Both the position numbers and the translations under genes were made by a program. 64,000 bases of DNA from an uncultured Bacillota bacterium (GTDB lineage Bacteria > Bacillota > Dethiobacteria > DTU022 > UBA8154), in assembly GCA_937973635.1 (NCBI GenBank), contig CALJJZ010000015.1, forward strand, positions 1-64,000. The letters run 5' to 3'. Of this stretch, positions 44,215-54,863 are shown one piece after another. Position 1 is the first letter of the stretch. The number at the start of each line of letters is the position of its first letter. The notes beneath the pieces were generated by a model that did not search any database, was not told the origin of the DNA, and saw only the letters and a program-made list of their open reading frames with translations.

Positions 44215-45972
44215 TTATTGCTGGATGTTGTACTTTTTTATTTTCCGGGCCACCGTGGATTGGTTGACTTTTAAAATTTCCGCAACTTTATAGGTGCTCT
44301 TATGTTGCCGGTAAAGCTTTTCTAATATTTTCCTTTCAAAGTCTTTTTTGATGCTTTGAAAAGAAAGGGTGTTGTCCAAGTCAGAAAAATTATTAAAAGT
44401 GTCTACATTAAACATCTCAAAAAGATGATGTAGCCCGATGAGATCCCCAGTAGTTACAATAAAAAGCCGCTCTATTATATTTTTAAGCTCGCGAATATTC
44501 CCCGGCCAGTTATAGTTTTGCAAATAATCCAGGGTTTCAGGGCTTAAAACTTTATTTTTCTTGTACTTCTGGTTAAAAGCCTCCAGACTGGCTTCAACCA
44601 GAGGGACAATATCGTCTTTTCTTTTCCTTAAAGGAGGTATTTCAATGGGTATAACATTGAGGCGATAAAATAGATCTCCCCTAAAAGTGCCTTCTTTTAC
44701 CATGGCAGCTAGATCGCGGTTTGTAGCAGCGATAAAGCGGACATCTAAGATAATTTCTTTATAGCCTCCCACGCGTGTAATGGCACTTTCTTGGAGAAGA
44801 TGCAGCAGTTTTACTTGTAGATTGTAAGGAAGATCCCCAATTTCATCCAGAAAAACTGTGCCTTTATTGGCTATTTCAATTTTACCTATTTTGCCTTTAC
44901 TCCCGGCGCCAGTAAAAGCCCCACTCTCATAGCCAAACAGTTCAGTTTCCAAAAGGTTTTCAGGGATAGCGCCGCAATTAATAGTCACAAAAAGGTTTTT
45001 TTGGCGAGGACTATTATTATGGATAAAACGGGCTAAAAGTCCTTTACCTACCCCTGTCTCTCCCAATAATAAAACCGGCGCATCGACCTCAGCCACTTTC
45101 CTGGCATAATTTAGCACTCGCACCATGGAATTGCTTTTAGCAATAATATTTCCAAACTTTAAAAAGTCCATTTCTTTATTGATCAGTTCTTGATAATAAT
45201 GTTCTTTGAGAGTTTCTAATTCCTCTAATTGGGTTTTTAATCTATTTAATTTAGCTGTATCACGGGCATTAATGATAACATGACAAATAGAACCATCTTC
45301 ATTAAAAAGAGGAGTCCCGGTGACTAGCACTTTAGATTTATTGCCATATTCCTGAAAAATACTGACTTGCCTTTTTTGCTCCAAAACCATTCTGGTGACA
45401 GAAGGCTTAAAAATACCTTCTTTTTCTAATTCTCTGACATTTTTACCTAAAACCTCATCCCTATTAATGCCAGTATTTTCCTCAAAGGCCTTATTTACCA
45501 TTAAAGTATTTCCTTGGCCATCGGTAACATATATTTCATCAGAAGAAAAATTGATTATTTTTTTGAGGATATTCACCTCTGCGTTAAGGGCTAGAGTTTG
45601 TTCTTTTAAGTGCTTTAAAACCTTTAACAAAGAAGAAAAATCTAAAATACCGGTATAGCGATCAGGCTCTTCATAGACCAAAAAAACATACTCGCTTTTT
45701 TCCCCTGAACCTTTTGCTATAATTTCTTCCAAAACCTCCAAAGAGCTATTTTCTTTGACCAAGCCATGGAAGTGCTGTAAAAATTTTTTAACTGGCACAG
45801 AGTGCTCTGATGTTTCCAACTTTTGCCTGCAAACATATCCTTTTATCTGCTCCCCATTTTTTAATATACCGTAATCTAAATTATTTTCTTTTAATATACG
45901 CAGCGCTTCCTGGGAGGTAATGTTTTCCTTTAAAGTTATAAAGCGGTGCAGGGCCAAACCACCGGCTTTCAT
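44215..45972 (-). CDS. Sigma-54-dependent activator with CBS-like, PAS and AAA+ domains
   Basis: Enhancer-binding activator of about 585 aa. Order: CBS-like pair (about 5-125, FITLKENITSQEALRILKENNLDYGILKNGEQIKGYV), PAS (about 140-250), linker coil, AAA+ domain (about 275-505; Walker A GETGVGKG, the sigma-54 contact loop ESGAFTGA, Walker B TVFLDEIGD, arginine-rich RGDLFYRLNV), and a C-terminal Fis-like helix-turn-helix (STYKVAEILKVNQSTVARKIKKY). ATG 45972 is about 8 nt after AAGAGG. No receiver domain, so it senses a ligand directly. It lies next to TRAP operon 2 and probably drives the divergent sigma-54 promoters at 40.7 and 41.0 kb. Confidence 0.95.
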   Translation of the reverse strand: MKAGGLALHRFITLKENITSQEALRILKENNLDYGILKNGEQIKGYVCRQKLETSEHSVPVKKFLQHFHGLVKENSSLEVLEEIIAKGSGEKSEYVFLVYEEPDRYTGILDFSSLLKVLKHLKEQTLALNAEVNILKKIINFSSDEIYVTDGQGNTLMVNKAFEENTGINRDEVLGKNVRELEKEGIFKPSVTRMVLEQKRQVSIFQEYGNKSKVLVTGTPLFNEDGSICHVIINARDTAKLNRLKTQLEELETLKEHYYQELINKEMDFLKFGNIIAKSNSMVRVLNYARKVAEVDAPVLLLGETGVGKGLLARFIHNNSPRQKNLFVTINCGAIPENLLETELFGYESGAFTGAGSKGKIGKIEIANKGTVFLDEIGDLPYNLQVKLLHLLQESAITRVGGYKEIILDVRFIAATNRDLAAMVKEGTFRGDLFYRLNVIPIEIPPLRKRKDDIVPLVEASLEAFNQKYKKNKVLSPETLDYLQNYNWPGNIRELKNIIERLFIVTTGDLIGLHHLFEMFNVDTFNNFSDLDNTLSFQSIKKDFERKILEKLYRQHKSTYKVAEILKVNQSTVARKIKKYNIQQ

Positions 45973-46101
45973 CACCATCACCTCTTAATTTTCTTTAAAA
46001 ATCTTATGGAGAAAAAATGTTTCGGTATTTTAGTGTTGCTAGTACAGTACAACAAATTTTTTTTTGCTATGTCAAGGGGCTAAAAATTGCAACGTCAAGG
46101 C

Positions 46102-46222: not shown

Positions 46223-46720
46223 ATGAGAAAAAGCTTCAGAAAATCTCTTTTTGGCTTTAAACCAGCTGAGGTGGAAAGTGAGCTTAAGCAGCTAAGCAGC
46301 GAATACCAGAGCACACTGGCAGCCCTTCAGCTTGAGGTTGAAAAAAAGCAAGAAGAGTTAAAAAAAGCGGAAGAAGAAGTCTACGAGCTGAAGAAGAAGA
46401 TAAATGAATATGTTGCCAGGGAACATATGATTGCTGATGTTTTCCTGGAAGCGCAAAAAAAGGCCACGCAAATTGAAGAAGAAGCGCGGGAAACCGCCAG
46501 AAGATTGATCGAAGAAACGGAGAGCGAGCTAAGAAAAAAAAACCAGGAACTGGTGGGCCTCAGGGAAAAGGTAGCTCACTTTAAAGAAGAATTTAAAAAG
46601 GTTTTGGATAAGTACAGGTTTTCTCTGGAAACGGTGGCCCCAGAGCATTTAAGCGGAGATCTTCTTTCTTATCCCAAGCTTGTTGACAATAAAAACAAAG
46701 AAAGAAGCACTTTGCCTTAA
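46223..46720 (+). CDS. DivIVA-like coiled-coil protein
   Basis: Protein of 165 aa. The N-terminal FRKSLFGFKPAEVESELKQLSSEY resembles the DivIVA lipid-binding segment (F-x-G/Y then E-V-x-x-x-L), followed by a long charged coiled coil (about 25-140) and a short tail. DivIVA proteins bind curved membrane at poles and septa and recruit cell-wall or polymer machinery. ATG 46223 follows GAGGAGG by 7 nt. It precedes the exosortase-G-type cluster on the same strand and may position it. The downstream 1151-aa protein also begins with a coiled coil. Confidence 0.75.
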   Translation: MRKSFRKSLFGFKPAEVESELKQLSSEYQSTLAALQLEVEKKQEELKKAEEEVYELKKKINEYVAREHMIADVFLEAQKKATQIEEEARETARRLIEETESELRKKNQELVGLREKVAHFKEEFKKVLDKYRFSLETVAPEHLSGDLLSYPKLVDNKNKERSTLP

Positions 46721-46755
46721 AGAACCGCCCCCCGCTGCAAGATAGGGGTTAATGC

Positions 46756-46786
46756 ACAATGCACTACGTAGGGTTTAATGCATTGT
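46756..46786 (+). repeat. Inverted repeat upstream of the 6-PTPS-related gene
   Basis: ACAATGCA (46756-46763) and TGCATTGT (46779-46786) form an 8-bp perfect inverted repeat 15 nt apart. It could be an operator or a leader hairpin. A second dyad (AGGGTTG... with ...CAACCCT) follows around 46805-46840. Confidence 0.5.
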
Positions 46787-46948
46787 CTGGAAAATTGTTA
46801 TCCCAGGGTTGTTGCCAAGTGAGCAAGGTCTTGCAACCCTAAGGAAGGAAAGGTTTATATCTTTAACAAAGATAGGAGAAAAGAAAGTACTTGGCTGCGA
46901 TATGAGGCCCAGGAAAATGAGGCCCAGGAAAGAAAACTGCGTGAAGAG

Positions 46949-49900
46949 TTGCAGGGCTTAAACACAAAGCTAGAAGAATACAAGCAGCAGGCTTCCGAGT
47001 TAAGGGCGCTGGCTGCGGCAAGAGGTTCTTCTTTTCTCCATGTCCAGGCCGCCCTTGCCCAAAGCCTTAAGGCGGCAAGGGAAGTGGAAGGCCATGCCCA
47101 GGCTGAGGCCCAGCGCATCCTCTCTGAAGCCGAAGCCGTTGTTGCTGCAAAAAAAATAGAATTGCAGCTTGTAGAGGAGGAAATCGCCCGGTTAAACAAC
47201 GAGCTTTCTTCCCTGGAGCAGCGATCAAATAAGGTTTCCGCAGCGCAAAATAAACGAGCAGCGGTGGAGGAAGCGGGACAAGATTTAAGAATTTCCGGCA
47301 AGGGAGAAGAGATTGTTTGTTCCCCCGGCAGGGGGGAGCCCTTTGCTGAAGCCAAGGCTTACTCCATCCAGTTGTTTACCTTCCTTAACGCCAGCCATTA
47401 TGTTGCCTTTGCCGAGAAAGCTGGCCCGATCCACAGTCACTCTTGGCAGATACGCTTAAAGGTGGATATTCCCTCCTCCGAGAGTGAAACGATACCATTT
47501 ACCACCCTCACAGAATGTATCAACTCTGTTTTTACAGCATATGAGGGCAAAGTGCTGAATGAACTCCGCCCTTTTAACATTCTTCAACCCACGACAGAGA
47601 ATATGGCAATGTACTTTTACAACCGCCTGGAAGATGCGCTTGCCGAGCTAAAATTGGGCTTGGACAGTATTAGTCTGTGGGAGACGCCTTTGCGGGGGAT
47701 AGAAGTAAGCAAACGCAACAATGCCTTTGACCTCCTGCTGGGAAGCAGCAAGGAAAATGTAGAAAATTTAGCTTACCGCGGGGAAATTGCCGCGGCTACC
47801 GAAAAAGGTTTAGGCGCTGCTGTGGGTGTTGGGGGAAAAGGGGAAAGCGTCCCTGCAAAGCGGCCTGGCCCAAAAAGGCCGGAGTATATTGCCTACCGCT
47901 ACGCTTTGCACCATTATGCCGCTGCTGCACTGATAATTAACCTTGTCGCTTTCCTTGCTTATTACCCGGCGATCATGTCTCCCTTCGGGTTTCATTATCC
48001 CTGGGGTTCTGATGCTTGGGGGCACCTGTTCAAAGCAGAGTTCCTTTACGAACAGATCCTTAAAGGTAACTATTTCCCCCAATTTACGGAGTATTGGTAC
48101 AACGGGGTCCAACCTTTTCGCTATTGGGCACCTCTTCCTTATTATTTTTTGGCCCTGCTGCGTTCATTCAGCGCTGACATTTTTATGGCAGGAAATTACT
48201 TTATTTTCGGTTGTGCTCTTGGAGGAGGCCTGGCGTGGCTCTTTTTCGCCAACCGCCTAGGGCTTTTAGCGGCAACCCTGGGAGGCGTTATCTGGAGCGT
48301 TTGGCTCGATAACGTGCGGATTGCCTTCTCCGAGGGGAATCTCCCCCGCGTCCTGGCTGCTGCTTTGCTACCCCTTTTGTTTGCTTTCTTTTTAAAAATA
48401 ATGGAGGAGGGAAGATCTTTTCCCAGTGTTGTTATTTTTGTCGCCCTTTTGCACGGGGTTATCCTCGCCCATGCCATGTTTGGAGCGATTTTTGCTATCT
48501 CCCTGGGGCTTTTCGCCTTTTTCCTTTGGTTCTTGGGTGGCTGCGGGCTAAGTGGTTTTTTGCGGGGGCTTTTAGCCATTGTCCTAGGGGTCCTTTCCAG
48601 TGGATGGTGGCTACTGCCGGCCCTTGTGGGCGGCATTACCGGCATCAATGCTGGAGCGGTAAAAGCCTATGTGGCCGAAAATCTCATTCCCGCAGCGATA
48701 GCGCTAGACCCCTTTTATCGTTTTGCTAACCGGGAGGCTTTTTACTGGGGGATCAGCATTATTTTTGCCCTAACTTTTATTGCCTTGAACTGGCGGGCAA
48801 AACCGCCCTGGGCCAAAAGCCTGGCCCTTTGTGGATTAATCTTAATAGCCTTTACTTTTCCTTCGTTGCGGTTTTTATACGTCCTTTTTCCTTTAAGCCA
48901 CCTGCTGTGGCCGTATTACTTTAGCGGCTTTGCAGCGTTCTCCATTATTGCGTCCAGCCTGGCCTTTTACCCAGCCCCAAAATGGGCCTTTCCTTTGCGC
49001 TTTTCTTTTACCAAAGCGGGGCCTGTTATTGTTGTTATTATCCTTGCAACGGCATTTCTCCTTGACTCCTTTTTCTCTGTGCGTCTGCTTGCCCATACTT
49101 CTACGCGAGCCCCTAATAAATTGATCGCGAGCGCAGAGCTTTTACAGGCTGCCCCGGGCTGGCGTGTAGCAACCATAGATTTAAGCAAGCTCGGCTCCGC
49201 TCCTTCCTACCTTTTGGCAGAACAAGCAGGCCGGGAACAAGTATTTGGGTGGGCCTGGCAGGGGGCTGCCACCTCCCCCAATATCATGCTCATAAACACG
49301 GGTTTGCAATTCCAGTATTATCCTTTTTTGTTTCGCTCCTGTGTCCTTTTGGGGGCGACCGATTTGCTTGTGAAAGACGATGTAATCAAAAACCCCCAGA
49401 CTTTTGCCCTTGAAGCGGAAAAAGCTGGGTACAGTCATATCGTAACAATAGACGGGGTTAGCATCTGGCGCGCCGCTATGGAGACACCCTACTTGGTGGA
49501 GGTGCGGGATGAATTCCTAGCCATCGGTGAACATGCTCCCACGGTAGCTTTGCTGTTTCCCCGTGTAGAGATGGGCGTTTCTACTTATCTTGACAGTTAT
49601 GACCTCGAAAGGCTAAAAAAGTACAGCGGTATTATCCTGTACGGGGCAAAATGGTCCTCCAAGACAAAAGCGGAACAGGCCATTCTGGATTATGCCGCTT
49701 CTGGAGGAGAGGTGTTTGTCGAGCTTACCGGGATGCGGGAAGATGTACTGGCCAAGCAGCCGGAGTTTTTGGGGGTTTACGGTGAGCCGGTTGCTCTGCG
49801 GGGCCAGCTGGAACTTGTGGGACGGGAAGGCGAAGCTTACCTGTTGGAGCCTTTCTTTCTCGGGGATACCGGGATTTGGCAAGCTTGGGTACTGCAGGGG

Positions 49901-50404
49901 TTGGAGGAAGTAGAGCTTGAATTCACATATTTTGGCATGAGCGCACCTGTTTACGGGAGCAGGCTGGTAGAGGGTAGGAAAATCTACTTTTTGGGTGGCA
50001 ACCTGCCCTACCATGCCTTTTTAACAAAGGACGCGTTGGCCCTGGAGCTCCTGCAAGATATTTTCGCCGTAAGGGCGGGATATGCTCCTGTTTCTTTGAT
50101 CCCGCTGCGCGATTACCAGGCTAGCGAGGGCGGTTATGTCATGTCTTGTAGCGTAGAGAACGAAGTTGATGTGGTCGTCCCCGTCGCCGCCCTTGAAGGG
50201 ACGAAGGTAAAACTAAACGGGAGGCTCTGGCCTTACGAAGTTTATGAAAACCTGCTGAGGCTGAAGATCCCCGCTGGCGATCATGAAATTATAATCTATC
50301 TAGAAAGACCGCCTATCTACCGCTGGGGAGCAGCCCTATCCCTGCTTTCCCTTTTGTTTCTGGGCTGCGGCTTTTTTTACCTTCGCAAGAGAAAGGGGGG
50401 GTAG
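46949..50404 (+). CDS. 6-PTPS-related membrane protein with coiled-coil N-terminus
   Basis: Large membrane protein of at least 1151 aa. Order: coiled coil (1-115), 6-pyruvoyl-tetrahydropterin synthase-related domain (about 138-260; zinc-type histidines H150, H162, H164, PTTENMAMYFYNRL, SLWETP), then a long polytopic region from about 325 (GFHYPWGSDAWGHLFKAEFL, then about 12 helices) and a C-terminal extracytoplasmic domain ending in a last helix. The usual PTPS catalytic Cys four residues before the HxH is Ala158, so enzyme activity is doubtful. This matches the 6-PTPS-related domain family found beside exosortase-G genes. TTG 46949 has no ribosome binding site and the frame is open back to 46823 with coil-like sequence, so the true start may lie upstream at a rare codon. 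Confidence 0.85.
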   Translation: MQGLNTKLEEYKQQASELRALAAARGSSFLHVQAALAQSLKAAREVEGHAQAEAQRILSEAEAVVAAKKIELQLVEEEIARLNNELSSLEQRSNKVSAAQNKRAAVEEAGQDLRISGKGEEIVCSPGRGEPFAEAKAYSIQLFTFLNASHYVAFAEKAGPIHSHSWQIRLKVDIPSSESETIPFTTLTECINSVFTAYEGKVLNELRPFNILQPTTENMAMYFYNRLEDALAELKLGLDSISLWETPLRGIEVSKRNNAFDLLLGSSKENVENLAYRGEIAAATEKGLGAAVGVGGKGESVPAKRPGPKRPEYIAYRYALHHYAAAALIINLVAFLAYYPAIMSPFGFHYPWGSDAWGHLFKAEFLYEQILKGNYFPQFTEYWYNGVQPFRYWAPLPYYFLALLRSFSADIFMAGNYFIFGCALGGGLAWLFFANRLGLLAATLGGVIWSVWLDNVRIAFSEGNLPRVLAAALLPLLFAFFLKIMEEGRSFPSVVIFVALLHGVILAHAMFGAIFAISLGLFAFFLWFLGGCGLSGFLRGLLAIVLGVLSSGWWLLPALVGGITGINAGAVKAYVAENLIPAAIALDPFYRFANREAFYWGISIIFALTFIALNWRAKPPWAKSLALCGLILIAFTFPSLRFLYVLFPLSHLLWPYYFSGFAAFSIIASSLAFYPAPKWAFPLRFSFTKAGPVIVVIILATAFLLDSFFSVRLLAHTSTRAPNKLIASAELLQAAPGWRVATIDLSKLGSAPSYLLAEQAGREQVFGWAWQGAATSPNIMLINTGLQFQYYPFLFRSCVLLGATDLLVKDDVIKNPQTFALEAEKAGYSHIVTIDGVSIWRAAMETPYLVEVRDEFLAIGEHAPTVALLFPRVEMGVSTYLDSYDLERLKKYSGIILYGAKWSSKTKAEQAILDYAASGGEVFVELTGMREDVLAKQPEFLGVYGEPVALRGQLELVGREGEAYLLEPFFLGDTGIWQAWVLQGLEEVELEFTYFGMSAPVYGSRLVEGRKIYFLGGNLPYHAFLTKDALALELLQDIFAVRAGYAPVSLIPLRDYQASEGGYVMSCSVENEVDVVVPVAALEGTKVKLNGRLWPYEVYENLLRLKIPAGDHEIIIYLERPPIYRWGAALSLLSLLFLGCGFFYLRKRKGG

Positions 50405-50412
50405 GATCTTTT

Positions 50413-51615
50413 ATGCGCCTTTTTTATTTTTTCATCACGGCAATATGTGTGGCACTAATATTACTGTGGCCCCCGGGGTCTTTATTCCTGCCAAAAATCC
50501 AACTGGACGGGGAATTTGACGACTGGAAAGGGCGCGCTTTTTACCACCACGCCGGCGACTTTAAAGCCGGCCCTTTTAAAAACAGGAAGCTTAAAGCGAT
50601 TTCCTGGGGGACCAATGAAAATGAAAGGCTCCTCTATTTTATGGTAGAGCTGCGCAAGCCAGTTGAGGAAGGATGCAGCTACCTGTGCAGGCTTAATTTG
50701 GATCTTAACGATAACGGCAGCTACCATGACGCTGTTGACAAGTTTGCGCAAATATTGTATGAGCCGGCTTATGATATAGGGAATGTGCTTGTAGAGCTGT
50801 ACTCTTCAAAGGGGGAGCTCCTTTCTACTTACGCAGGGGCCTGGGGAGAAGGTGCCATGGTAGGCGGCAGCCGCTTTGAGTTCAGCATTCCCATGGCCGA
50901 CCTCCATCTCTACCCCGCCCAGCATCTCAGGTTTTATTTTTCCACTCTTGTTCTTCCAGGCGACCGCATCCCCCGGGAAGGCGACATTCAGTGGAAACCG
51001 TTTCCAGTTGTCGTCAGAAGCAGGATAAGGATAACTTTTCTGGCCCTGTGCTGGTTGGCAGGTTCATTTATATTATACCGGCACCGTATCTGGCTTTTTT
51101 ACTACATATGGAGCGCGGTGGGCTTTACTTTCCTATTTATCCTGCTTTTCCGTGGTTCGCTGTTGGAATACCGTATTGAGCAGCTGACCGGACTGGCTCT
51201 CCACTATTTAATGCGTTATTTTGATATTATCAGCTTTGTTTTTGATAAAGCGCCCGGCACAATGCTATTGTTTGTTAAGGCCGATGAAAGCTGGACCACG
51301 CTGGACATAGATATTGAAAGCTCAGGCCTCCTAGAGATCGGCGTTTTTTTAGGGTTAATCCTTTTTTATCCTGCCTACAGGCTTTCCCAAAAGGTCCTTT
51401 ATGCCTTGGTAGGGGTTCTGGCCCTGCTTTCTTTTAACATGGTGCGCTTGATGATCATTGTTGCCCTTATCTATAACTTTGGCAGAAATTTTAACTTTCT
51501 GGCCCATACTCTGTTCGGGCGCATTATCTTTTTCATTTTTATGGCTTTAACTTACTGGTATCTTATGACGCGTCCCACCTTGGTAAAAGTCAAGGAGATG
51601 GTTGAAAATGCCTGA
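50413..51615 (+). CDS. Exosortase-like (XrtG-type) membrane protein with N-terminal CBM9-like domain
   Basis: Protein of 400 aa. After a signal-anchor helix there is an extracytoplasmic domain (about 28-200; IQLDGEFDDWKG, LNLDLNDNGSYHDAVDKF) resembling CBM9/DOMON sugar- or haem-binding folds. The C-terminal half (about 205-385) is polytopic and follows the exosortase layout: the ESSGLLE segment (302-308), R345 in FNMVRLMIIV, and H365 in AHTLFGR. Exosortases cleave and transfer sorted proteins using a Cys in a C-S-G motif; here that position is Ser303. It overlaps the glycosyltransferase gene by 8 bp and follows the 6-PTPS-related gene, the arrangement known for exosortase G in Firmicutes. Confidence 0.8.
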   Translation: MRLFYFFITAICVALILLWPPGSLFLPKIQLDGEFDDWKGRAFYHHAGDFKAGPFKNRKLKAISWGTNENERLLYFMVELRKPVEEGCSYLCRLNLDLNDNGSYHDAVDKFAQILYEPAYDIGNVLVELYSSKGELLSTYAGAWGEGAMVGGSRFEFSIPMADLHLYPAQHLRFYFSTLVLPGDRIPREGDIQWKPFPVVVRSRIRITFLALCWLAGSFILYRHRIWLFYYIWSAVGFTFLFILLFRGSLLEYRIEQLTGLALHYLMRYFDIISFVFDKAPGTMLLFVKADESWTTLDIDIESSGLLEIGVFLGLILFYPAYRLSQKVLYALVGVLALLSFNMVRLMIIVALIYNFGRNFNFLAHTLFGRIIFFIFMALTYWYLMTRPTLVKVKEMVENA

Positions 51616-52999
51616 GGTTTTATGGGATATCTCCCTTCGTCTTATACTTTCCTGGGGCATCTGGCTCCTTGCCCCGCTCCTGGTGGATGTCTCCGCGGCA
51701 GTAAACTGTTTTTGGGGCCTCTATGCCCATCGGAGAAGGGAAAAATATAGCCTGCCACTGAGCTACGCGCTGCATCAGCCGTTTATAACCGTTGTTGTCC
51801 CTGTTTACAACTCCGAGAAAACGCTTCTTAAATGTCTTGAATCAATTTATTTGCAGCAATACCCCAAAGATAAAATCCAGGTTATCTGTGTCAACAACGG
51901 CAGTCAGGACAACAGTTTTGAAGTTTTTCAGCGCTTTCATTTTGCCCACCCCGAAATTAGTACCATCTGGATCTCCCTTGATAGGCCCAGCAAATCAATC
52001 GCCCTAAACGCGGGGGTTTATTCAGCCCAGGGCACTTATATTATCAACTTGGACTCCGATGCCTGGTTGGAAGGGCAAGCCCTTATGAAGGTAGCGCAGG
52101 CTTTTGAAGAAGACAGCACCCTGGCTGCCGCCACAGGTTATATCAGGGTAGATAAAGAACTAGGGAAAGGTTTTACCTTCATGGATGTGCTTAACTACTG
52201 TGAAGTCATAGAGTATATGCTCGCCTTTAATATTGGCCGCCGTCATCAGGACATTAAAAACACACTATTTACCCTTTCTGGTGCCTTCTCTATGTTCCGG
52301 CGGGACGTGCTTATGCAGTCATTCTTGTACCAGGAACGCACCGTCTCTGAAGATACCGACCTGACTTTTCAGATCAAAAAAGTCTTTTCCAAGAAGAAGT
52401 ACCGCGTGGGGGCTATTTTAGACGCCGTTGCTTACGTTGAACCGGTCCGTTCCCTTGCCGCCTTATACGCCCAAAGGGCGCGCTGGCAGAGGGGAGAGAT
52501 AGAAACGATAGCCGTCCATACGGCGGGAGGTAAGGGCCCCACCATAAGCTTACGGGATTACTTGGGCCGTATGTTCTTTACTGATCATACGCTGGCCTTA
52601 ACCAGGCTCAGCTGGACATTTTTAATCTTTTTCCTTTATATTTTGGGCTATGCCTTGCAAACCGTATTTTTCTTCATAGCCGTACTTTTTTTCTGCTATT
52701 TTCTTTTGGATGCCCTCAACCTCTTTGTGTACTCCAGGAACAGCCCCACAGAATTCAGAGAAGACTTAAAAAAAATTTGGTGGATAGTTTTTTTCCTCCC
52801 TTTTTTCCGCTATCTTGTTTACTGGTTCCGGCTGGCCGGGATAATCCTGGTTTTAACGGAAGCCAAAACCTGGAGAGTAGAAAACCCCTTTACCCAGCTC
52901 AAGGACGTTTTTAGGGGATATCATCTTTCGTTGAAAACGCTCTTTGCTTTTCCGGGAAAGTCTAAAATAAACAAAGGCAGAAAACGGGTTGTAAACTAA
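51608..52999 (+). CDS. Family 2 glycosyltransferase (exosortase-G-associated type)
   Basis: Membrane glycosyltransferase of about 463 aa. One N-terminal helix, a GT-A catalytic domain (VVVPVYNSEKTLLKCLESI, the DxD-like NLDSDAW, EDTDL, and the processive-type QRARWQRGE motif), then three or four C-terminal helices. The Q-x-x-RW motif is shared with cellulose/chitin/hyaluronan synthases, so it probably polymerises or adds sugar on the cytoplasmic face. ATG 51608 is 9 nt after AAGGAG and overlaps the exosortase-like gene. It corresponds to the glycosyltransferase family described next to XrtG. Confidence 0.92.
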   Translation: MPEVLWDISLRLILSWGIWLLAPLLVDVSAAVNCFWGLYAHRRREKYSLPLSYALHQPFITVVVPVYNSEKTLLKCLESIYLQQYPKDKIQVICVNNGSQDNSFEVFQRFHFAHPEISTIWISLDRPSKSIALNAGVYSAQGTYIINLDSDAWLEGQALMKVAQAFEEDSTLAAATGYIRVDKELGKGFTFMDVLNYCEVIEYMLAFNIGRRHQDIKNTLFTLSGAFSMFRRDVLMQSFLYQERTVSEDTDLTFQIKKVFSKKKYRVGAILDAVAYVEPVRSLAALYAQRARWQRGEIETIAVHTAGGKGPTISLRDYLGRMFFTDHTLALTRLSWTFLIFFLYILGYALQTVFFFIAVLFFCYFLLDALNLFVYSRNSPTEFREDLKKIWWIVFFLPFFRYLVYWFRLAGIILVLTEAKTWRVENPFTQLKDVFRGYHLSLKTLFAFPGKSKINKGRKRVVN

Positions 53000-53020
53000 C
53001 CTATCAAAGGGGTGCTAATA

Positions 53021-53794
53021 TTGTCAGAGAGGCTTGTTGCCATCATTTTACCCATGTATAACGAGGAGCTGTCTGTCCCGGCGCTGCGCAGCATGTTTGG
53101 GGGCGGCATCTCATTGCCGGCGGGGTGGGATTACCGCATCATGGTCATTAATGACGGGAGCACCGATGGGACACTGCTGCAAGCCCTGGGGTGGGCAAAG
53201 GCTGATTCCAGGGTTACTGTCCTGTCTCATACAGAAAATAAAGGCTTGGGACAGGCTATCTTGACAGGTTTTTATGAGGCCATCAGGATGTATGCTTCGG
53301 TTATCGTGACCATGGATGCCGATGCCACCCATCCCGGTGAGCTCATCGGCCCTCTGCTAGAAGCGCTCCTGGACGGGGCAGAGATGGCCATTGCCTCCCG
53401 TTTTGCCAAAGGCGGCAGGCAGCTAGGGGTCCCCTTTTTCCGCCGCCTTTTAAGTTTTGGCGCCAGGAAATACTACAGTCTCATCTTTCCCCTGGCCGGT
53501 GTAAGGGATTATACTATTAATTTCCGGGCTTATAAGATAGAGCTGATCAAAAATGCTTGCCACAGAGTTGATGGCTCTTTGCTGGTCTCTGGTACCTTTA
53601 CGGCTACGGTTGAGATTTTGTTAAAACTGGCAACCCTTTGCCGGAAAATAAAGGAGGTCCCTCTGGTGCTGCAGTACGGCCGCAAGAAAAGCCGTAGTAA
53701 ACTTGGGATTGCAGCCACCATACGGGACAGCCTCAAGCTGTGCCTGCTCCCAAAAGAAAAGTGCCTGCTGGGGAGAGGACTACGCCTTTCTTAA
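53021..53794 (+). CDS. Family 2 glycosyltransferase (dolichyl-phosphate mannosyltransferase-like)
   Basis: Cytosolic-face GT-A enzyme of about 257 aa resembling DPM1/polyprenol-phosphate glycosyltransferases: IILPMYNEE, VINDGSTDGT, the catalytic TMDADATHPGE and RDYTINFRAYKIELI. It would load a sugar onto an undecaprenyl-phosphate carrier. TTG 53021 is 8 nt after AAAGGGG; an in-frame GTG at 53012 overlaps the ribosome binding site. It lies in the exosortase-G cluster; the following small DMT protein may flip the lipid-linked sugar. Confidence 0.92.
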   Translation: MSERLVAIILPMYNEELSVPALRSMFGGGISLPAGWDYRIMVINDGSTDGTLLQALGWAKADSRVTVLSHTENKGLGQAILTGFYEAIRMYASVIVTMDADATHPGELIGPLLEALLDGAEMAIASRFAKGGRQLGVPFFRRLLSFGARKYYSLIFPLAGVRDYTINFRAYKIELIKNACHRVDGSLLVSGTFTATVEILLKLATLCRKIKEVPLVLQYGRKKSRSKLGIAATIRDSLKLCLLPKEKCLLGRGLRLS

Positions 53795-53863
53795 CATAAA
53801 GGCAGGTTTAAAAATAATTCTGCTTATGTACGTTATTATTAAAACGGAGGGGGTTAACACAAA

Positions 53864-54229
53864 TTGAAGCCTAGTCTGGTGTTATTATTTATATCCATTT
53901 CCCTGGGGGCAACGGGCCAAATTTTCCTGAAATACGCAACAGGGCGGATGGGCGAAGTTAACCTGAAGTGGTCAGCGCTTCCCTTTACGCTTTTAACTAT
54001 TTTCCGCAACCCTTGGACAATAACAGGCCTTTGTTTTTTTGTTACAAGTATGGTCTTGTGGATCAAAGTAATCTCAACCATGGAATTAAGCAAAGCTTAT
54101 CCCAGCATCAGTTTGTCTTATATTATTGTCTTTGTGTTTTCTGTCTTGCTTTTTAAGGAAACAGTTACGCTGACAAAGGTTATGGGCATACTCCTCGTTA
54201 GCATCGGTGTTTTTTTCCTGCACCAGTAA
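53864..54229 (+). CDS. Small four-helix DMT/EamA-type membrane protein
   Basis: Protein of 121 aa with four membrane helices, SMR/ArnE-like (GATGQIFLKYATGRMG near the start, WIKVISTMELSKAYPSISLSYIIVFVFSVLLFKETVT, GILLVSIGVFFL). Small DMT proteins include multidrug pumps and flippases of undecaprenyl-phosphate sugars such as ArnE/ArnF. The DPM1-like gene just upstream favours a lipid-linked sugar flippase. The TTG start at 53864 follows GGAGGGGG at a rather long spacing. It closes the cluster. Confidence 0.82.
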   Translation: MKPSLVLLFISISLGATGQIFLKYATGRMGEVNLKWSALPFTLLTIFRNPWTITGLCFFVTSMVLWIKVISTMELSKAYPSISLSYIIVFVFSVLLFKETVTLTKVMGILLVSIGVFFLHQ

Positions 54230-54404: not shown

Positions 54405-54863
54405 CTAAGACAAAACCTCTTCCCGAAGTTCCGCCGAACGGTTGTGTTCATGGAAAGCCTGGTAAAAAAGGGGATCCAGGAGCGTATAGAGGCGTATAGT
54501 ATTGGCATTGAGGTCGGCTATCTGCTCCAGCCAGCTCTGGTATATATCTTTGTCCATAGGGAACTGGGTAAAGTGCTTTCCCGGCAGGGCAGTACCGATG
54601 TTTATCCCCTTTACGATGAGAGGATTCCACTGGCTGTCATGGTATATCTCAAAGAAACGCTCCTTTGTGCGCGCAACGAGCCTGGTATCGCCGGTGACGG
54701 CAATTTCCGGCAAAGAATACGCCTGCTGTCGCGAGGTACAGCCGTTTAGGAAAGGGGCGAAAAGGGTAAAAAAGAGAAGAAAGATAAGCAAAAACGCGGC
54801 ATAAACGGGGATACCTGGGACATAGTTGTGGAAATCACTTTTTGGCAGAAAGAATTTATCCAT
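54405..54863 (-). pseudogene. Truncated membrane-anchored TIM-barrel-like protein
   Basis: An N-terminal fragment of 152 aa with a signal-anchor helix (VYAAFLLIFLLFFTLFAPFLNGC), then WNPLIVKGINIGTALPGKHFTQFPMDKDIYQSWLEQIADLNANTIRLYTLLDPLFYQAFHEHNR. This is the start of a glycoside-hydrolase-like barrel (the GIN-IG and NTIRLYT strands) that in complete proteins runs for several hundred residues. The frame stops at 54405, and codable sequence in other frames persists only briefly downstream. I read it as a decayed gene, possibly once part of the polysaccharide locus. Confidence 0.55.

Follow-up and report, generated by a model that had tools for sequence, protein, structure and literature searches.

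A target-exosortase fusion without the catalytic cysteine at an XrtG-type locus of an uncultured Bacillota bacterium

The XrtG/Firmicu-CTERM systems are the closest described relatives of the locus studied here; in L. plantarum, such a system pairs a Firmicu-CTERM protein with an exosortase and two transferases (PMC12854382). Two other described systems are relevant to its individual parts. In the archaeosortase ArtA, Cys173 was reported to be critical (PMC9263693), and in Streptomyces, DivIVA is functionally linked to the surface beta-glucan synthase CslA (PMC13432765). Among the open-access papers searched, one mentioned the XrtG system and none described an exosortase that is fused or lacks its Cys. 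Here we describe a locus within a 64,000-nucleotide stretch of DNA from an uncultured Bacillota bacterium (contig CALJJZ010000015.1, positions 1 to 64,000; hereafter, the window) in which an XrtG-type exosortase core is joined to a target domain. A natural fusion of this kind points to a cognate target-enzyme pair without experiment, and it bears on the unsettled role of XrtG.

Gene content and predicted glycan machinery

Analyses of positions 46223-54229 of the window identified six open reading frames, all present on the plus strand. The gaps between the genes from 46949 onward are 8, -14, 12 and 69 bases, and the DivIVA-like gene is set apart from the one that follows by 228 bases. The first gene (46223-46720, with its ATG at 46223) encodes a DivIVA-like coiled-coil protein of 165 residues, which scored above the gathering threshold of PF05103 (43.9 versus 28 bits, E = 2.9e-11).

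The second gene (46949-50404) encodes a large membrane protein consisting of a cytoplasmic coiled coil, a PTPS-like domain (residues 144-254) and a membrane part (residues 390-1022) that matched PF10131 with 491 bits. The protein also passed the TIGR03112 cut-off (75.8 versus 69.35 bits). As the frame is open upstream of 46949, its true start is unsure. A low-confidence model of residues 290-1151 (pLDDT 53.6) had ten Foldseek matches to PDB structures with E < 1e-3, all of them GT-C proteins (AftD, AftA, OST, PglB, DPY19 and ArnT), and judged by this model the membrane protein is of the GT-C fold. As regards the zinc histidines and catalytic cysteine of 6-PTPS/QueD enzymes, the PTPS-like domain keeps three His residues and has no Cys at the presumed QueD position. 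The coiled coil and the PTPS-like domain should be on the inner face of the membrane.

The third gene (50413-51615), which encodes the fusion, is considered below. It overlaps the fourth (51602-52999), which encodes an XrtG-associated, processive-type GT2 with a QRARW motif that fell marginally under the TIGR03111 cut-off (359.9 versus 363.95 bits) and matched PgaC with 124 bits. The fifth gene (53012-53794) encodes a DPM1-like GT2, a predicted polyprenyl-phosphate sugar synthase, whose best solved relative is the dolichol-P-mannose synthase 5mlz (E = 3.4e-24); both GT2 proteins of the locus matched PF00535. The sixth (53864-54229) encodes a small SMR/EamA protein resembling the ArnE/ArnF flippases, which scored 65.2 bits (E = 6.9e-18) against the ArnF model, under its cut-off of 99 bits. 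The sugar donors of GT-C enzymes are lipid-linked and are used on the outer face, which agrees with the DPM1-like synthase and SMR protein encoded here. By family membership, the DPM1-like transferase and the ArnF-like protein fit a lipid-linked sugar route.

The sequence-only reading of this DNA had proposed six collinear genes forming a polymer-assembly locus with a lipid-sugar synthase and flippase branch. All six genes proved to be real and assignable to families, with synteny maintained in related Bacillota. A putative role in glycan assembly is supported, and the DPM1-like synthase, the ArnF-like SMR protein and the GT-C transferase support the proposed branch.

On the minus strand at 54405-54863 lies a 152-residue N-terminal gene remnant, 79% identical by blastp over 106 residues to the product of L009:228-2792 in genome G005; the latter has 854 residues and no Pfam or NCBIfam match. 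A sigma-54-dependent activator, PrdR-like with a score below cut-off, is encoded on the minus strand at 44215-45981 and points away from the operon.

A target domain fused to an exosortase core

The protein encoded at 50413-51615 has 400 residues and two domains. Its first part (50413-51030), delimited by hhalign and by model strands, comprises an anchor and a secreted beta-sandwich (residues ~28-200). The second part (51031-51615) is an XrtG-type exosortase core (residues 205-398), which stands alone in other loci as a protein of about 195-240 residues. The score against TIGR03110 was below the cut-off (91.4 versus 102.75 bits), a value that the fused relatives straddle, some above and some below; TIGR04178 was matched with 49.9 bits.

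The front part of about 200 residues has counterparts in two other arrangements. In G343, G510, G511 and other genomes it is a separate protein encoded just upstream of xrtG, and in G154, G168, G134 and G246 it makes up the C-terminal end of the GT-C protein. The target domain is thus shuffled, being separate (L029, L077, L078, L083), at the GT-C C terminus (L026, L032, L033, L034) or fused to the exosortase. When profiles of nine fused N-domains and eight separate targets were aligned with hhalign, the probability was 100 (E = 2.1e-56, 39% identity). The separate targets in turn matched the XrtG-locus targets of G257 and G569, tail included (probability 95.6, E = 1e-8), and the G257 target is above the cut-off of the Firmicu-CTERM model TIGR04145 (116 versus 50 bits). 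Taken directly, the window N-domain scored 14.1 bits against TIGR04145 (E = 0.033), too weak alone for membership, and its tie to that family runs through the intermediate separate targets. By this chain of sequence matches, the window ectodomain is homologous to a Firmicu-CTERM-type target.

The two kinds of protein differ where the target ends. Separate targets close with GDIQWSPIPI, then a helix, then basic residues, whereas in the fused proteins GDIQWxPFPV leads straight into the first exosortase helix, and the target helix and basic tail are gone. In the window, the beta-sandwich ends in GDIQWKPFPVV. An AxA signal-peptidase site is present in most separate targets and absent from most fused proteins, and the N-terminal anchor of the window fusion looks uncleaved. 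A model of moderate confidence (pLDDT 69.7) showed a helix at the N terminus, then a beta-rich domain (residues 42-194, with strands mostly at pLDDT 75-91) and, from residue 204, a helical core. Foldseek gave no confident PDB match for this model. CBM9 and other named carbohydrate-binding folds were considered for the ectodomain and rejected (no notable Pfam match, no PDB sequence match better than chance and a best Foldseek E of 0.017), and because no named fold matched we term it only a beta-sandwich.

Targets of this family appear to be dedicated to one enzyme. A profile of the separate targets had one match, at the xrt locus, in 21 of 25 genomes. Two matches were found in G005 (a broken copy), G499 (a second locus) and G520 (a contig-end fragment), and the target of G257, missed by this profile, was found at the locus with TIGR04145. 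All targets lie at the xrt locus except the G520 fragment. In the genome of the window, the separate-target profile and TIGR04145 detected only the fused copy, with no tailed target and no TIGR04145 match. A fusion would be expected to take the place of just such a dedicated one-to-one pair of target and enzyme.

Where the unfused relatives have the catalytic Cys, the window exosortase has Ser303, in a triad with Arg345 and His365. The Cys of the E-C-S-G motif is replaced in all 16 fused loci, by Ser in six and by Asn in ten, and all 13 of the unfused loci from Bacillota have it. The 16 loci, from 14 genomes, comprise an initial 14, the broken copy L008 and that of G718, which was fetched after the Ser/Asn pattern had been noted and fits it; the Chloroflexota locus L043 was left out of the motif reading, as this stretch is masked. 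A Chloroflexi XrtG locus (L042:6210-8239) is unfused and has a separate tailed target, yet carries Ser at the same site. The codons are AGY or AAY in the fused loci, TGY in the unfused Bacillota and TCG in L042, and this difference between the fused loci and L042 suggests that the Cys was lost twice independently. Around the site, all 26 proteins in the alignment share Glu302, Ser304, Asn342, Arg345, His365 and Arg370. The dN/dS of the exosortase core was 0.08-0.21 for close fused pairs, by which measure the fused core is under purifying selection.

The sequence-only reading had seen in this locus the XrtG trio of exosortase, GT2 and PTPS-related protein. It was right as to the type of locus, and the 50413 protein did not turn out to belong to an unrelated family; that this protein is a two-domain fusion lacking the catalytic Cys had been missed. 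The further expectation that the exosortase sorts proteins by their C-terminal tails was not borne out, with Ser at the nucleophile site, the target fused in front of the enzyme and no further member of the target family found in the genome.

Distribution and evolution of the fused locus

G005, G009 and G004 carry the gene set in collinear arrangement, so the six genes are not separated in these related genomes, and it is partly collinear in Peptococcaceae BRH_c4b and several other Bacillota. No SMR gene was called at the G009 locus, and the last two genes are in swapped order in G004. The DivIVA, PTPS, exosortase and GT2 genes occur together in Peptococcaceae BRH_c4b, in the single-contig genome G053 and in others. 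In G005, the whole locus is present twice on one contig (L008 and L009 on G005:C21), the copies being about 17 kb apart and one of them broken by stops and frame shifts. Downstream of the G009 locus, a 913-residue protein (L010:10262-13003) matched the AftB-type arabinofuranosyltransferase model NF041481 with E = 1e-56, below cut-off, and from this match is apparently another GT-C enzyme. The exosortase is rare. Counting the query genomes, it was found in 4 of 40 relatives, 4 of the 98 genomes of the class, 13 of the 399 genomes of the phylum sample and 13 of the 54 in family f21; extending the search to three orders (those of G168, G114 and G257) and to the class of G154 added little.

A DivIVA-like partner had been claimed from the window alone, and such a gene does travel with the fused variant of the locus. 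Among loci with readable upstream DNA, it adjoins 10 of 11 fused loci (the window, L009, L010, L011, L041, L028, L031, L073, L074 and L081, the exception being L113) versus none of nine unfused ones (L077, L026, L032, L033, L034, L025, L082, L083 and L042). In an alignment of 10 locus relatives, the start of the DivIVA-like protein, GFKPxEV, is conserved. An obligate partnership was rejected, as there is no such gene beside the fused locus of G718.

To count the origins of the fusion we relied on the GT2 tree, because the exosortase tree gave weak support (61/78) for a single origin. In the GT2 phylogeny, the fused loci form one clade with support of 100/99, or 98/99 with G718 added; Cys is found outside this clade and both Ser and Asn inside it. 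On this tree the fusion is a single event, as is the Cys loss in that lineage, with switching between Ser and Asn within the clade. Since the fusion arose once, its link with Cys loss counts as one evolutionary event rather than 16. Given L042, which is unfused and has Ser, the loss of Cys may have come first and the fusion afterwards.

Proposed function and comparison with known systems

We consider it probable that the locus is a derived form of XrtG locus, where a non-cutting pseudo-exosortase holds its own fused ectodomain beside a surface-glycan synthase. A single dedicated sorting target would have become the N-terminal part of its own exosortase, the target's C-terminal anchor (membrane helix and basic tail) being replaced, just after GDIQWxPxP, by the first exosortase helix, and the nucleophile would have been lost. 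The retained Arg, His and pocket would hold the motif or another ligand, and the beta-sandwich ectodomain would stay at the membrane next to the glycan machinery. In that machinery, the QxxRW GT2 would make the main chain, the DPM1-like enzyme would make a polyprenyl-phosphate sugar, the SMR protein would flip it and the GT-C protein would transfer the sugar outside. The complex may be positioned by two elements, the GT-C coiled coil and the neighbouring DivIVA-like protein. More tentatively, and with somewhat more doubt than belief, we speculate that proteolysis was abandoned, with genetic fusion reaching the outcome that XrtG normally gets by cutting and re-anchoring its target.

It is unlikely that the protein is instead an active exosortase, using Ser303 as its nucleophile to cut and transfer either the fused domain or an unrecognised substrate. 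The kept Arg and His are consistent with activity, and L042, with its Ser and intact tailed target, indicates that Ser might still work; however, Asn occupies the site in ten fused loci, no second target of the family was found in the window genome and Cys is ancestral on the GT2 tree. We give little credence to a fusion that processes itself by a single cut after GDIQWxPFP, with the ectodomain released or re-anchored. That motif persists immediately ahead of the first helix of the exosortase, and Asn and Ser are able to drive self-cleavage in other systems, but two different residues occur at the site, the target has lost its membrane anchor and tail, and most of the N-terminal segments are without a signal-peptidase site. 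A functionless relict in decay, or an annotation or assembly artefact, to which the broken copy in G005 and the lost nucleophile might point, is scarcely credible against 16 fused loci in 14 genomes, including the single-contig G053, a dN/dS well below 1 and kept synteny.

The fused variant belongs to a group of anaerobic bacteria, and its exosortase is probably a holder rather than a cutter. If this is correct, XrtG would serve to bring one ectodomain to a glycan synthase, and an exosortase core could act as a scaffold that binds without catalysis. That the fused lineage has lost the nucleophile hints at the purpose of the XrtG reaction. Annotation pipelines may label such Cys-less fused proteins as XrtG, as several pass the TIGR03110 cut-off.

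The window locus resembles the Streptomyces DivIVA/CslA pairing in having a DivIVA-type protein with a putative surface glycan synthase, a parallel rather than a proof; its synthase is of another family and the link is one of gene neighbourhood. The 46949 membrane protein shares its fold with the GT-C transferases AftD, AftA, ArnT and PglB and differs from them in carrying a cytoplasmic coiled coil and a PTPS-like domain. Kinship with ArtA is distant, at the level of the exosortase/archaeosortase superfamily (the TIGR04178 match), and whereas ArtA needs its Cys (PMC9263693), the window lineage has Ser or Asn. The nearest system is that of XrtG and Firmicu-CTERM (TIGR03110, TIGR03111, TIGR03112 and TIGR04145), with which the window locus shares the exosortase core and the GT2, PTPS-related and adjacent target-domain families, and from which it departs in that the target is fused, its tail and the catalytic Cys are lost, and a DivIVA-like gene and an N-terminal coiled coil have been added.
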